In this document: piece after piece, positions 978-12,697 of the stretch
Numbering within the stretch: the first letter of the stretch is position 1
How the letters are laid out: each line of letters begins with the position of its first letter
Source of the DNA: a virus
DNA length: 33,905 nucleotides
Reading direction: 5' to 3' (one strand)
Virus record (IMG/VR): IMGVR_UViG_3300027736_000133
Span: 1 to 33,905 of that record
Position numbers and translations under genes: made by a program
The notes under the pieces: generated by a model
The model's input: the letters and a program-made list of their open reading frames with translations, nothing else
Databases searched by the model: none
Told to the model about the DNA's origin: nothing

Positions 978-1077
978 TTGCCTTGCCTTGCCAAGCCTTG
1001 CCCTGCCTTGCCTCGCCGCGCCGTGCCAAGCCGAGCCAAGCCCCGCCTCGCCACGCCAAGCCTGGCCACGCCAAGCC
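978..1077. repeat. twenty phased NNGCC pentamers
   Basis: From 978 to 1077 the plus strand divides without a slip into 20 five-base units, each ending GCC and with a variable first dinucleotide (TT, AA, CT, TC, GC, GT, GA, CC, AC, TG). Read on the minus strand it is GGC-NN repeated. It fills about half of the 189-bp gap between the small gene at 1129 and the T5orf172 gene. Conservation of GCC with free NN suggests selection on a 5-bp spaced motif, or decay of an expanded microsatellite. Function unknown. Confidence 0.9.
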
Positions 1078-3028: not shown

Positions 3029-3922
3029 TTAAGCCATCTTGGACATTTGCAGGTTAAGAGATTTTATTTCTGAGCGTAGAGCCTTCCATTCCGCCCTCGC
3101 CTTTGGATCGCTCCAAGTCGTATCCAGTCCAGTTTCAATCGCGTGACGAGACTTCAGCTCATCGGCTCGTTGCTTCTTAGCTTCCATGATCTTGGTTAAA
3201 GCAAACACGGTTGGCTTTCCATTCGGTTGAGATTGCGCCGAGTGTTGCGATTGTTTCGCTCGCCAGCTCTTCAATGCGTTCAAGAGAAGCGGCTCAACCT
3301 TCCTTATAGGCTGTCCGGTTGTGTCAGTCCAGTTCCTGCCGTCGTGGGTATTCCAGAACCATTCGGCACAGTCGTCCGGCACTGCTCGCATCTGGCAAAG
3401 GTGGTCAAAGGCTTTTCGGGACATCGGAGGGATTTCAGGCAAAGCCAGCTCTCTCTCTCTCTTCTTATTCTCTTCTATTCTCTTCTCCTCTCCTCTCCTC
3501 TCCTCTTGGCCGACACTGTCGGGACACTGTCGGGACACTGTCGGGACACTGTCGGGAGTCTTTTTGCTGTTTGGGTTTTGATCGCCAGCCTGATTCTGTT
3601 GTTTTGTTAGCTTTTGGCAGTATTCTGATTGTTTTTTGTCCCACTTGATCACCGATATGTGGTTTTCCTCGATGGCGATGTATCGAATCTCTCTCAAGAT
3701 ATTGACGGCCTCGTTTACTTTCGGAATAGAAATGTTTAGGCGGCGACTAAACCCAAACAGCTCAATCTCGTCTTTTCCCCAGGAGACCTTGCTTCCCTTA
3801 TGTCGGCAGCATTCAGAAAGCAACCCAACCCAAACAGACACAACCTCAGGCAGCTTAGAGATGGCGTATTGAAGCCGCGTCTCGTCTAGGTCGTTTTCGT
3901 AGAATTTGAACCAGTCAGCCAT
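3029..3922 (-). CDS. phage replication initiation protein (lambda O-like organisation)
   Basis: A 297-residue protein. The N-terminal ~100 residues (MADWFKFYENDLDE, then LFGFSRRLNISIPKVNEAVNIL) look like the winged-helix N-terminal domain of phage replication proteins. A low-complexity linker (residues ~115-160) is Gln/Asn-, then Glu/Arg/Lys-rich, followed by a C-terminal helical domain with W.AWFWN-type residues (CAEWFWNTHDGRNW) and a lysine-rich tail. The linker is where the gene itself carries four iterons and a purine tract, matching the lambda arrangement in which the origin lies inside O. It sits with HNH, recombinase and helicase genes. A start ATG after a CA-repeat leader is used. Confidence 0.65.
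   Translation of the reverse strand: MADWFKFYENDLDETRLQYAISKLPEVVSVWVGLLSECCRHKGSKVSWGKDEIELFGFSRRLNISIPKVNEAVNILREIRYIAIEENHISVIKWDKKQSEYCQKLTKQQNQAGDQNPNSKKTPDSVPTVSRQCPDSVGQEERRGEEKRIEENKKRERELALPEIPPMSRKAFDHLCQMRAVPDDCAEWFWNTHDGRNWTDTTGQPIRKVEPLLLNALKSWRAKQSQHSAQSQPNGKPTVFALTKIMEAKKQRADELKSRHAIETGLDTTWSDPKARAEWKALRSEIKSLNLQMSKMA
3449..3507 (+). other. 59-nt polypyrimidine (minus: polypurine) tract beside the iterons
   Basis: All 59 plus-strand bases are C or T except the A at 3467 and at 3477. It includes a CT dinucleotide run and about five TCCTC units. It encodes the Glu/Arg/Lys run at residues ~139-158 of the replication protein. Long mirror-like purine tracts can form H-DNA or melt asymmetrically, so an origin-unwinding role next to the iterons is a reasonable inference. 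Confidence 0.75.
3512..3555. repeat. four tandem 11-bp iterons (GACACTGTCGG), origin candidate
   Basis: Four perfect head-to-tail copies of GACACTGTCGG at 3512, 3523, 3534 and 3545. Each copy contains the 9-bp dyad GACA-C-TGTC. Because 11 is not divisible by three, three copies give an 11-residue peptide repeat (PDSV.PTVS.RQC), seen at residues ~123-137 of the replication protein. Exact 11-bp spacing puts the sites on one DNA face. This is the form of initiator-binding iterons in theta-type origins. That this is the origin is inferred. Confidence 0.7.
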
Positions 3923-3925
3923 AGC

Positions 3926-3957
3926 TGTTTGTGTTGTTTGTTTGTGTTGTTTGTTTG
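3926..3957 (-). promoter_or_regulatory. CA-repeat leader of the replication gene
   Basis: Two and a half copies of a 13-bp unit (minus strand AACAACACAAACA) end 3 bases before the replication gene ATG. There is no purine-rich Shine-Dalgarno. Similar ACAACACAAAC or AAACAAA stretches precede the starts at 668, 1667, 2334, 2826, 5912, 6860 and 31561, so it looks like a translation-enhancer-type leader. Confidence 0.5.
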
Positions 3958-5960: not shown

Positions 5961-6860
5961 TCAAATTAGCTTCTGCTGTTCCGCCTCGGCTCGCTTGAGG
6001 TAGGAAACTGCGTTCTTGAAATAACCCTCCTTCAACTCAGTCCCCACGAAGCGGCGATTGTATTTCAGCGATTGATAGCCCTCGCTACCGATGCCCATGA
6101 ATGGTGAAAAGACAACCTCGCCGGGATTGCTCCAAAGCACGACGCACCTTTCAATAACGTCGAGTTGAAGCGGGCAGATGTGTTTTTCATCCTGTGCATC
6201 ACGCGCCTCGGATTTGTTCAGGACATTGGTTTGATTTATGTCCATCCAAATCGGAGACGCCCACTGTTGCCACTGAGCAACCGGAAACTCTTCTTTCGTG
6301 TGAGTGACTGGCTTCACGTCCTCTTGGTTTTCATCCTCTGCCCACTTGCGAAATACTAAGATGTATTCCGGCATACCTGCCCGGCTGAATGTTGAATCAG
6401 ATCTTAGCTGCTTCCAAAGCAGGCCATGCGCTTTCGTGCGCTGCATCTCGATGACTGGGTCTTTCCAGATCACTACTTCCGAGTGATATGCCCAACCTGC
6501 TTCTTGATGTAGTCGGATGATGTCGCCTCGGAAGTCGCGTAATCCTGCCATGCCATCGCGCCCTTTGTAGTTCACTAGATTCTTGCAGTGAACGCACGAA
6601 ACACGGCCGGGACGCGTGATGCGATGAAGTTCTTTTACAAGGAAGGCGTATTGTTGCATAAACTCTGCGTCGTCTTTGCAGTTGCCCATATCGCAAGCCG
6701 AGTCAGAGTAGATGTATAGGTTTGCGAACGGCGGGCTATACACAGTCAGGTCGATTGAATTGCTTGGAGCTTGCTGCGAGAAGTCCACGCAATCTGCGTT
6801 GTATGCGCTCCAGCTTGTGCCGTGCGCTTCGTTTAATACTTTCACTTTGTCTTTAGCCAT
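5961..6860 (-). CDS. DNA methyltransferase (beta-type N4-cytosine/N6-adenine)
   Basis: A 299-residue enzyme that would transfer methyl groups from S-adenosylmethionine to DNA bases. The catalytic motif SPPF (42-45) comes first and the AdoMet-binding FSPFMGIGSEG (251-261) near the end, with FVGTELKEGYF after it, which is beta-class order. SPPF occurs in N4-cytosine and some N6-adenine enzymes. Target unknown. A CDMGNC and a VSCVHCK segment add Cys residues after motif IV. The helicase gene upstream overlaps its start by 19 bp. I see no matching restriction endonuclease, so an orphan, protective methylase is the likely role. Confidence 0.88.
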   Translation of the reverse strand: MAKDKVKVLNEAHGTSWSAYNADCVDFSQQAPSNSIDLTVYSPPFANLYIYSDSACDMGNCKDDAEFMQQYAFLVKELHRITRPGRVSCVHCKNLVNYKGRDGMAGLRDFRGDIIRLHQEAGWAYHSEVVIWKDPVIEMQRTKAHGLLWKQLRSDSTFSRAGMPEYILVFRKWAEDENQEDVKPVTHTKEEFPVAQWQQWASPIWMDINQTNVLNKSEARDAQDEKHICPLQLDVIERCVVLWSNPGEVVFSPFMGIGSEGYQSLKYNRRFVGTELKEGYFKNAVSYLKRAEAEQQKLI

Positions 6861-8233
6861 ATTGGGAGAGTCCCTTCGTGTGTTGGTTTGTATGTTTGTT
6901 TGATGTTGTGTGACCGCTGCCTGTCCATGCTGGCAAACTTCATTGCGCCCTTCATTTGATCATGCGCTGAAAGCTTGGCCTGAATTGTCTGCCAGATTGG
7001 CTGCTCCGAGTTTGCAATGATGCAATCAACCCTCACTGGCCTCTTTTGTCCGAAACGCCAGGTGCGCCGAATGGCTTGGTAAAACTGCTCGTAAGAATAT
7101 GAGATGCTGGCAAAAATAACGTGGTTGCAGTGTTGGAAGTTAAGTCCGAATCCGCAGATCGAGGCCTTGCTTATTAGCACGCGAACTTTACCGGCTGAAA
7201 AGGCTTCAAGCTTTTCCTCTTTTGAATCCGCAGAGTCCGCGCCCTTTACTTCGACGCTGTCGGGGATTGCTTTTCGCAGCGCTTCGCTTTCGTCATTGGA
7301 CTCGCACCAGATAAGGCAGTAGTCGCCAGTGCTTGCGAGCTGTCGCGCCTTTTCGACTCTTTCTTTAAGAGTTGCTCGCTTGTCAGCATGCATCGTTGTA
7401 GCGGTTAGCTGTGCCGACTTGAATAGCCAACCTTCATCAATGTCGGATTCCATAACAGAATCAACGCAATGCAAGTTCGTAGTAAGCGGAGGGAGTATGT
7501 GTCGAGAGTCGTCGCCTCCAGCGTCACTTGGTTTTCCAGCGCAAGCTGCCCAGCTTGCTACCCATTCCCAAAAGGACTGGATGGCGTGACCCTTTAGCCT
7601 GTAGCTTCCAAAGTTCATCGTGTCATTGATGAACCAGCGAGTCAGCATTTCATTTGAAGGCATTACGCCGAGGAAGTCGCTATGGTTTCCAAGTTCCATG
7701 TAGTCGTTAGGCGCAGGAGTAGCAGAGCAACAAAGCCGGAATGGTGTTTGCGAAAAGGTATCGCAAAGTTGATTCTTTGTTTTACCCATGAAGGATTTCA
7801 AGATCGAGGATTCGTCTAACACCACTCCGTTAAACTCGTCGGCGTTGAACAAGTGCAACCTCTCGTAGTTTGTGATCGTGATGCCTTCGGATGTTGAGCC
7901 GTCGCGGGAGTGGAGTATATCGACTCCAATTGCTTTCCCCTCCCTGACTGTTTGAGCGGCTACAGCGAGCGGTGCTAAGATTAACTTTTTGCCGGGGACG
8001 TGTTTCGCCCACTCGATCTGGCATCTGGTCTTTCCCAGTCCTGTGTCTAGGAACAAAGCAGCCCGCCCCTTCTTTAACGCAAACTCCGTTACCGTCTTTT
8101 GATAGTCGAAAAGGTAATCTCCGAGCGGCGGGACTTCTTTTAGTCCGTGGTCGCATTGCTTAATCGACTTGCGTTCGATTAGTTGTTGGTAGGTCATCGT
8201 GGTTGTGTTGTGTGTTGTATTTTTATCCGTCAA
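6842..8233 (-). CDS. SNF2-family superfamily II helicase/translocase
   Basis: A 463-residue (or 451) ATPase: Walker A DTGLGKT (63-69), ITNYE (119-123), DESS in motif II (140-143), SATPAPND motif III (170-177), and motif VI QAIRRTWRFGQ (386-396), the signature of SNF2-like translocases. No DNA-binding extension is apparent, so it is a compact phage version. The first ATG overlaps the upstream stop (ATGA), but the next 12 codons (NTTHNTTT) read like an ACA-repeat leader, so ATG 13 (8197) may be the real start. It overlaps the methyltransferase by 19 bp, suggesting that the two act together on DNA. Confidence 0.88.
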   Translation of the reverse strand: MTDKNTTHNTTTMTYQQLIERKSIKQCDHGLKEVPPLGDYLFDYQKTVTEFALKKGRAALFLDTGLGKTRCQIEWAKHVPGKKLILAPLAVAAQTVREGKAIGVDILHSRDGSTSEGITITNYERLHLFNADEFNGVVLDESSILKSFMGKTKNQLCDTFSQTPFRLCCSATPAPNDYMELGNHSDFLGVMPSNEMLTRWFINDTMNFGSYRLKGHAIQSFWEWVASWAACAGKPSDAGGDDSRHILPPLTTNLHCVDSVMESDIDEGWLFKSAQLTATTMHADKRATLKERVEKARQLASTGDYCLIWCESNDESEALRKAIPDSVEVKGADSADSKEEKLEAFSAGKVRVLISKASICGFGLNFQHCNHVIFASISYSYEQFYQAIRRTWRFGQKRPVRVDCIIANSEQPIWQTIQAKLSAHDQMKGAMKFASMDRQRSHNIKQTYKPTHEGTLPIWLKTK

Positions 8234-12230: not shown

Positions 12231-12697
12231 TATTCCCAACCCGTTGTGATGTTAGCCACGCCCCAAAACCTCATTTGTCCTGGAGGCTGATTTGTGAACC
12301 TACAAAGTTTTTGTATGTTTGTGCCGCCTGTGAAATTCGTTTCCATGCCCGTCAGCCAAAGTTCACCGATGCGGTTGGATGGCCACAATGCGGGGATGGA
12401 TTCGATGCCTCCCAGCATGGCATATACGGCGTAGTGCGTGCCGTTCGTGACGTTGAATCGGTTCGTGCTGACTGACGCGCTGTTAGTCCAGCTATACCTA
12501 GCTCCACCCCATGCGACTCGGTTTGATGCTCCGAGTGGATTGTCCCATGTGAGGACGGTCTGTTTGAATGGCGCAGGCGTCACAGGCAGTGTCAGGCTGG
12601 ATGTGGTTGCCATCTGAACTCCGGGAACGACTTGCGCGGAGTGAACTGCTGACGCGCAGAGGAGCAAGGCTGAGATTATGGAAAAGGCGTGGGTCAT
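12230..12697 (-). CDS. secreted beta-sandwich-like protein with signal peptide
   Basis: A 155-residue protein with a Sec signal (AFSIISALLLCASAVHS, cleavage after residue ~20). The mature part begins AQVVPGV and has Ig/FN3-like stretches (QTVLTWDNPLG and later TNRFNVTNGTHYAVYAM) with WGVANITTGWE at the end. Start and stop are coupled to the neighbours (ATGA at 12694-12697; TAATG with the next gene). Such export is unusual in a tail region, so it may be an outer-surface or receptor-interacting factor, or a captured host gene. Confidence 0.65.
   Translation of the reverse strand: MTHAFSIISALLLCASAVHSAQVVPGVQMATTSSLTLPVTPAPFKQTVLTWDNPLGASNRVAWGGARYSWTNSASVSTNRFNVTNGTHYAVYAMLGGIESIPALWPSNRIGELWLTGMETNFTGGTNIQKLCRFTNQPPGQMRFWGVANITTGWE

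Follow-up and report, generated by a model that had tools for sequence, protein, structure and literature searches.

Do short tandem repeats lying beside a nearly pure purine tract, both within the coding sequence of a predicted phage replication gene, constitute the replication origin of the phage that carries them? That an origin can lie within the gene for its initiator was proposed and proven long ago, yet to our knowledge few phages other than the model systems have a known origin. We examined the question in a 33,905-base virus record from IMG/VR, analyzed over its whole length (positions 1-33,905; hereafter, the window). Our results suggest, with a probability of about 83%, that array and tract together form a phage replication origin embedded in its own initiator gene, in the manner of lambda ori within O. 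The features concerned are as follows:

3029-3922, minus strand: replication initiator gene P0001, DnaD-like (297 aa; PHROG 186 match, weak Phage_rep_org_N)
3584-3922, minus strand: N-terminal domain (aa 1-113), predicted winged helix, presumed to bind the iterons (AF2 mean pLDDT 82)
3512-3557, minus strand: iteron array, four perfect 11-bp units (full copies at 3512-3555; codons 122-137)
3508-3511, minus strand: 4-bp junction, GGCC, between array and tract, from comparison of the window, L004 and L005
3449-3507, minus strand: 59-nt purine tract (coding strand AAGAGGAGAGGAGAGGAG...; codons 139-158), presumed unwinding or helicase-loading element
3236-3430, minus strand: C-terminal domain (aa 165-229, AEWFWNTHD...), presumed host-replisome contact; recurs in L053 and L055

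The initiator gene and its protein

An earlier note on this DNA, made from the letters alone, had placed the repeats inside a replication-protein gene. A profile search bore this out, since P0001 matched PHROG 186, "DnaD-like helicase loader", over residues 3-151 (E = 1.1e-6), and the same family was recovered again separately. Pfam's Phage_rep_org_N (PF09681) scored 19.2 bits, below its gathering cut-off of 23.3, but the N-domain alone aligned with almost all of the profile (E = 0.0012); the Pfam RepA_N profile (PF06970) gave no match to P0001 at E up to 1. AlphaFold2 predicted helices and a beta wing for residues 1-113, disorder for residues 114-164 and a helical C-domain. The repeats and tract, which occupy codons 122-158, fall inside the predicted disorder. 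When the N-domain model was submitted to VIA-align, the top row was 4pql, the N-domain of a RepA_N plasmid initiator (Z 8.1, 85 residues, rmsd 2.2), and the best rows (4pql, 5kbj, 4pt7, and 4pta) were all RepA_N initiators aligned over 85 residues (rmsd 2.2-2.3, Z 7.7-8.1). CRP-type winged helices tied with these in Z, but aligned over about 65 residues. Foldseek by itself returned no significant match (E above 0.03). Judging from the models, the N-domain can safely be predicted to be a winged helix, and its kinship with RepA_N may be taken as a lead.

Genes upstream of the initiator resemble SSB and Sak4 recombinase. A helicase gene (6842-8233, minus strand; PHROG 62/16) and an N6/N4 DNA methylase gene (5961-6860, minus strand) each match part of a single PHROG 16 fusion protein, which points to a split helicase-methylase. 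Immediately ahead of the initiator ATG, the leader (3923-3957, minus strand) consists almost wholly of A/C, contains a 13-bp repeat (CAAACAAACAACACAAACAAACAACACAAACAGCT) and has no Shine-Dalgarno sequence, hinting at a host that initiates translation without one; a repeat at 6881-6908, TGTTGGTTTGA, resembles that of the leader. No Rfam families or tRNAs were detected in the window.

Iterons and purine tract in the linker

Four perfect tandem 11-bp copies, each holding a GACA-C-TGTC dyad, had been described in the earlier note, together with a 59-nt, almost pure pyrimidine tract beside them, and both descriptions proved accurate down to their coordinates. TRF returned GACACTGTCGG x 4.2 at 3512-3557 with 100% matches (plus strand; the unit reads TGTCCCGACAG on the coding strand), and the 11-mer pair is single-copy, occurring nowhere else within the 33,905-base record. 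GACA-C-TGTC lies inside every 11-mer, and a second dyad, TGTC-SS-GACA, bridges adjacent copies. The expectation that the array imposes a repeated peptide on the protein was borne out in part: PDSV does recur (PDSVPTVSRQC-PDSV), but the effect is slight, since 11 is not a multiple of 3 and PDSV alone repeats.

The tract begins 4 bp from the array, and 57 of its 59 plus-strand bases are pyrimidines. Its segment score is 47; when the whole window was dinucleotide-shuffled 100 times, the highest score was 23. All five of its arginine codons are AGR, versus 22.5% AGR in the other window genes. Across six relatives, AGR:CGN was 23:1 within purine tracts versus 22:72 elsewhere in the same genes (Fisher p = 4e-11), a test that is partly circular, the tract limits being the purine run itself, and that draws on non-independent relatives. 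The tracts differ in sequence from gene to gene (GAGGAGAGG, TCAGAA, CCAGAA, TCACAA, CTCCTCC, and TCTTTATCTTCT); common to them are simplicity, strand asymmetry and, mostly, absence of self-structure. Of 12 genes with repeats, among them lambda O, 9 have their least complex stretch (array excluded) starting -15 to +40 bp from the array end, versus a chance expectation of ~7% per gene, where array limits were set by eye and the window, L004 and L005 are related. In lambda O, this stretch is exactly the known unwinding element. The window gene thus presents, between the regions coding for its N- and C-domains, tandem putative binding repeats and, in position and simplicity, an adjacent low-complexity putative unwinding element, as an origin within an initiator would.

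Most tracts gave 0 kcal/mol for folding on both strands, with L055 as an exception; this value is not unusual among 42-mers from genes richer in AT, and unfoldability is supportive only. The GC content of the tested 42-mer was 38% in the window, 21% in lambda and 50-62% in L005, L006 and L010, a span (0.21-0.62) that rules out low AT melting energy as the rule for such tracts. Easy melting of the window tract is not evident from its composition, which is not AT-rich, and this counts against the origin reading. The earlier note had contrasted a polypurine tract here with an AT-rich element in lambda; the window's half of that contrast stands, but lambda's element is both AT-rich and purine-asymmetric, with nearly all purines on one strand (PMC5043065).

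Repeats in relatives

Relatives, both close and distant, were drawn from searches of viral contigs. Homologous genes with no repeats in this position had been named in advance as grounds for abandoning the origin reading, and the comparison of iterons showed repeats present at this position in homologous genes. The window, L004 and L005 have the N-domain and 11-bp core in common, and the end of the array, GGCC and the start of the tract (GTCGGCCAAGAGGAG) are identical in all three. The L004 unit, TGTCGGGACAC, is the exact reverse complement (by one rotation) of the window's TGTCCCGACAG, so that its array runs in the opposite orientation, and the peptide encoded changes from PDSVPTVSRQC to VGTLSGHCRDTV. 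Therefore, the double-stranded 11-mer is conserved and the peptide is not. In L005, ~seven units alternate with a 22-bp super-period. Since every second L005 unit is without the right half of GACA-C-TGTC, the case for that dyad as an essential element is weakened and the iteron core is probably TCCCGACA.

Among more distant relatives, L006 (39% identical) carries a 10-bp repeat, GTCCAGAAAA, followed by a GAGGAGAGGAG tract, and L010 (22% identical) carries an 11-bp repeat, ACCCACAAACT, followed by the same tract. The purine tract GAGGAGAGGAG is also present in L007, but that locus has no direct repeats, only CACAWTGTG-type dyads, a point against the origin reading. The initiators of L007 (4001-4870) and L010 (1731-2609), whose N-domains are ~31% identical, each have CACATTGTG-type dyads in the linker. 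Over the whole set, palindromes were ~2.7 times denser in linkers, as delimited by eye, than outside them.

Neither by DNA search nor by tblastn did P0001 match any isolated phage or plasmid, and a search with the N-domain, run without a positive control, gave no match in genome contigs and 388 genomes from the phylum of Limisphaerales bin L057. One C-domain relative within that bin is the only hint of a host. In several records of isolated phages, analogous DUF1376 or DnaD-like genes adjoin helicase or helicase-loader genes. Simple linker tracts were seen in Microcystis phage Mwe-JY08 (L077:883-1719, CCCTAACCCTAACCC) and, with a helicase loader or helicase gene nearby, in Pseudomonas phage AH02 (L074:886-1689, ACAGATACAGATACAG) and Marinitoga phage MPV1 (L081:412-1176, AAAGATAATAAAGATA).

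Constraint on DNA versus peptide

Within each gene, synonymous codons were shuffled such that peptide and codon usage stayed the same; with simple tracts masked, we then counted 7-mers that recur 8-30 bp apart. The window gene scored 48, whereas its 200 shuffles averaged 3.2 and peaked at 12. Eleven further genes of the set also beat all 200 shuffles, their repeats lying 10, 11, or 12 bp apart or at doubles of these; scores for L043 and L049 did not exceed those of their synonymous shuffles, which also counts against the origin reading. Within the window, the initiator gene has 54 repeat pairs per kb, versus a median of 1.85 in the other genes. As a yardstick, lambda O scored 9, a value that 5 of 200 shuffles equalled or exceeded, and its known spacings of 20 and 23 were recovered; TP901-1 rep showed repeats at 15 bp that were not distinct from shuffles (21/200). 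Since only the Microcystis and Marinitoga phages among 11 isolated phages beat all or nearly all shuffles (Leptolyngbya and Paracoccus came close), the generality of the layout beyond this gene set is partial. Repetition on this scale goes far beyond any demand of the peptide; the DNA, rather than the peptide, is conserved.

Exchange of domains

Between the window and L005, 98 of 114 N-domain residues (86%) are identical, as is the iteron, and 15 linker 8-mers are common to both; their C-domains are unrelated. Conversely, the window C-domain recurs with other N-domains in L053 (50 of 78 residues) and L055 (45 of 69), at 64-65% identity and with no linker 8-mers in common. The C-domain of L005 likewise recurs with unrelated N-domains, some of them DUF1376, in L043-L049 and L062-L069. 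Each hybrid with a clear array carries iterons of its own: CTGTSACAG in L043 and L067, CGTAACG in L045, GTGACGCCTGCC in L046, TGCGACCGCA in L053, GCACAGCCATA in L055, and TTCAACCGCTG in L062. Across these sequences, iteron type tracks the N-domain and not the C-domain, as would be expected if the N-domain binds the iteron. In the more distant N-domain pairs L046/L053 and L048/L049 the iterons differ, which confines the observed coupling to highly identical N-domains.

Comparison with known systems

Lambda iterons are 18 bp long and spaced 20-24 bp apart; unlike these, the window iterons are 11 bp and tight, and the tract beside them is less AT-rich (38% versus 21% GC). A family match between lambda O and P0001 failed. 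The two are alike in having iterons and a low-complexity, purine-asymmetric element in the middle of an initiator gene, which the same scripts find in both, and lambda ori within gene O is a proven origin (PMC7466680). Lambda, the parallel drawn originally, is not the sole one, and pSK41 Rep and the Rep of TP901-1/Tuc2009 are at least as close. The winged-helix N-domain of Rep from pSK41, a Staphylococcus RepA_N plasmid, binds four Rep boxes in mid-gene, the origin-encoded linker is dispensable as protein, and the C-domain contacts host primase (PMC5703833). In pPR9, N-domain and origin were replaced together and the C-domain was kept (PMC5703833), the same kind of natural exchange as the phage domain swaps described here. 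Like the pSK41 type, the window N-domain model has its best alignment coverage with RepA_N initiator N-domains; unlike it, P0001 has no Pfam RepA_N match. RepA_N boxes are semi-palindromes converging on poly-A (PMC7145576), whereas the window iterons are contiguous 11-mers with GC-rich spacers and the long purine tract is extra. Finally, the DnaD-type replisome organisers of the P335 lactococcal phages TP901-1/Tuc2009 bind direct repeats in their own gene at a proven origin (PMC8965321). Unlike the window, TP901-1 has a repeat spacing of 15 bp and an AT-rich linker, and these organisers show no detectable homology to P0001.

What sets the present layout apart is that its iterons are tightly spaced, at 10-12 bp, that the tract need not be AT-rich, and that N- and C-domains can be exchanged independently, also in DUF1376 proteins. 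In the literature searched, outside which many subscription papers lie, we found no description of tight, contiguous 10-12 bp iterons, a non-AT-rich purine tract, or wide N/C cassette exchange including DUF1376 proteins, whose domain is rarely named there and never in a title or abstract.

Alternative explanations

Cumulative GC skew, proposed in the earlier note as a check, has its minimum at 12,280 rather than at 3.5 kb. This result is uninformative for origin location, skew being a poor guide here: every one of the main genes examined is encoded on the minus strand, and the contig may be incomplete. The window also holds a GCCNN array (980-1077, plus strand) that separates ORFs 445-939 and 1308-1667, in which GCC recurs every 5 bp through twenty consecutive pentamers with NN variable; (GCCNN)4GCC gave 16 matches versus 0 expected. 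This array could be an alternative origin.

An initiator that binds the iterons only for repressing or roadblocking its own transcription, with the origin elsewhere (e.g., at GCCNN 980-1077 or an intergenic site), would fit the skew, which is not extreme at the array, the presence of that second repeat, and the ability of intragenic binding sites to block elongation. We nevertheless consider it improbable: autoregulation has no need of an adjacent low-complexity tract, the closest characterised systems use sites at this gene position as origins, and none of the 83 loci examined, most of which do not cover the equivalent region, has the GCCNN array. A neutral linker is slightly easier to entertain, though also improbable. 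Here, slippage would have made both repeats and tract, tolerated since the linker is disordered and serving no function as DNA. Perfect TRF-type repeats can indeed arise by slippage, and linker peptides vary wildly among relatives (EERRGEEK, SESES, PEPEP, TTTT, and SLSSS), so protein constraint is weak. Slippage leaves unexplained, however, why iteron type tracks the N-domain, how the strand could flip with the double-stranded unit kept, why array offsets are 10-12 bp or doubles, and why two different adjoining elements keep a constant order.

Domain swaps do map to the linker, as they would if tract and repeats were kept for promoting N-/C-domain exchange between phages. Swap partners have different iterons, however, and hence no shared homology, and selection for future recombination is weak; this is the least probable of the explanations considered, and swaps at the linker are more likely a consequence of the origin and cassette structure. 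The proposal that array and tract are a likely origin draws its support from the repeats in homologues, the conservation of DNA, the coupling of iteron to N-domain, and the identical anatomy that the same scripts recover in lambda O.

Proposed mechanism and significance

We infer a mechanism, from binding through melting to origin activity, because of this anatomy and the proven cases of lambda, TP901-1/Tuc2009 and pSK41/pPR9. The four 11-bp iterons, each a helical turn from the next and facing the same side, would be bound by the N-terminal winged helix, and the bound iterons would form a compact nucleoprotein array, straining and opening the adjacent 59-bp tract. Since the purine and pyrimidine strands hardly fold on themselves, they would remain single-stranded, and the replicative helicase could then be loaded onto them by the C-terminal domain together with host (or phage) helicase machinery. 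The same DNA encodes the predicted disordered linker joining the two protein domains, and therefore the origin would cost no extra genome. N-domain and iterons travel as one cassette and the C-domain as a second, which phages swap by recombination around the linker.

More tentatively, and as a generalization that we regard as possible but rather doubtful, what is conserved in such phage origins may be not AT-richness but a strand-asymmetric, unfoldable simple tract beside helically phased 10-12 bp iterons, with N-domain and iterons as a portable origin-specificity cassette among tailed phages and DUF1376 proteins as origin binders. If the layout holds, both the origin and the specificity domain could be read from the initiator-gene linker in uncultured phages, DUF1376 proteins would gain a testable function, and the view that AT-richness is what defines an unwinding element would be called into question.
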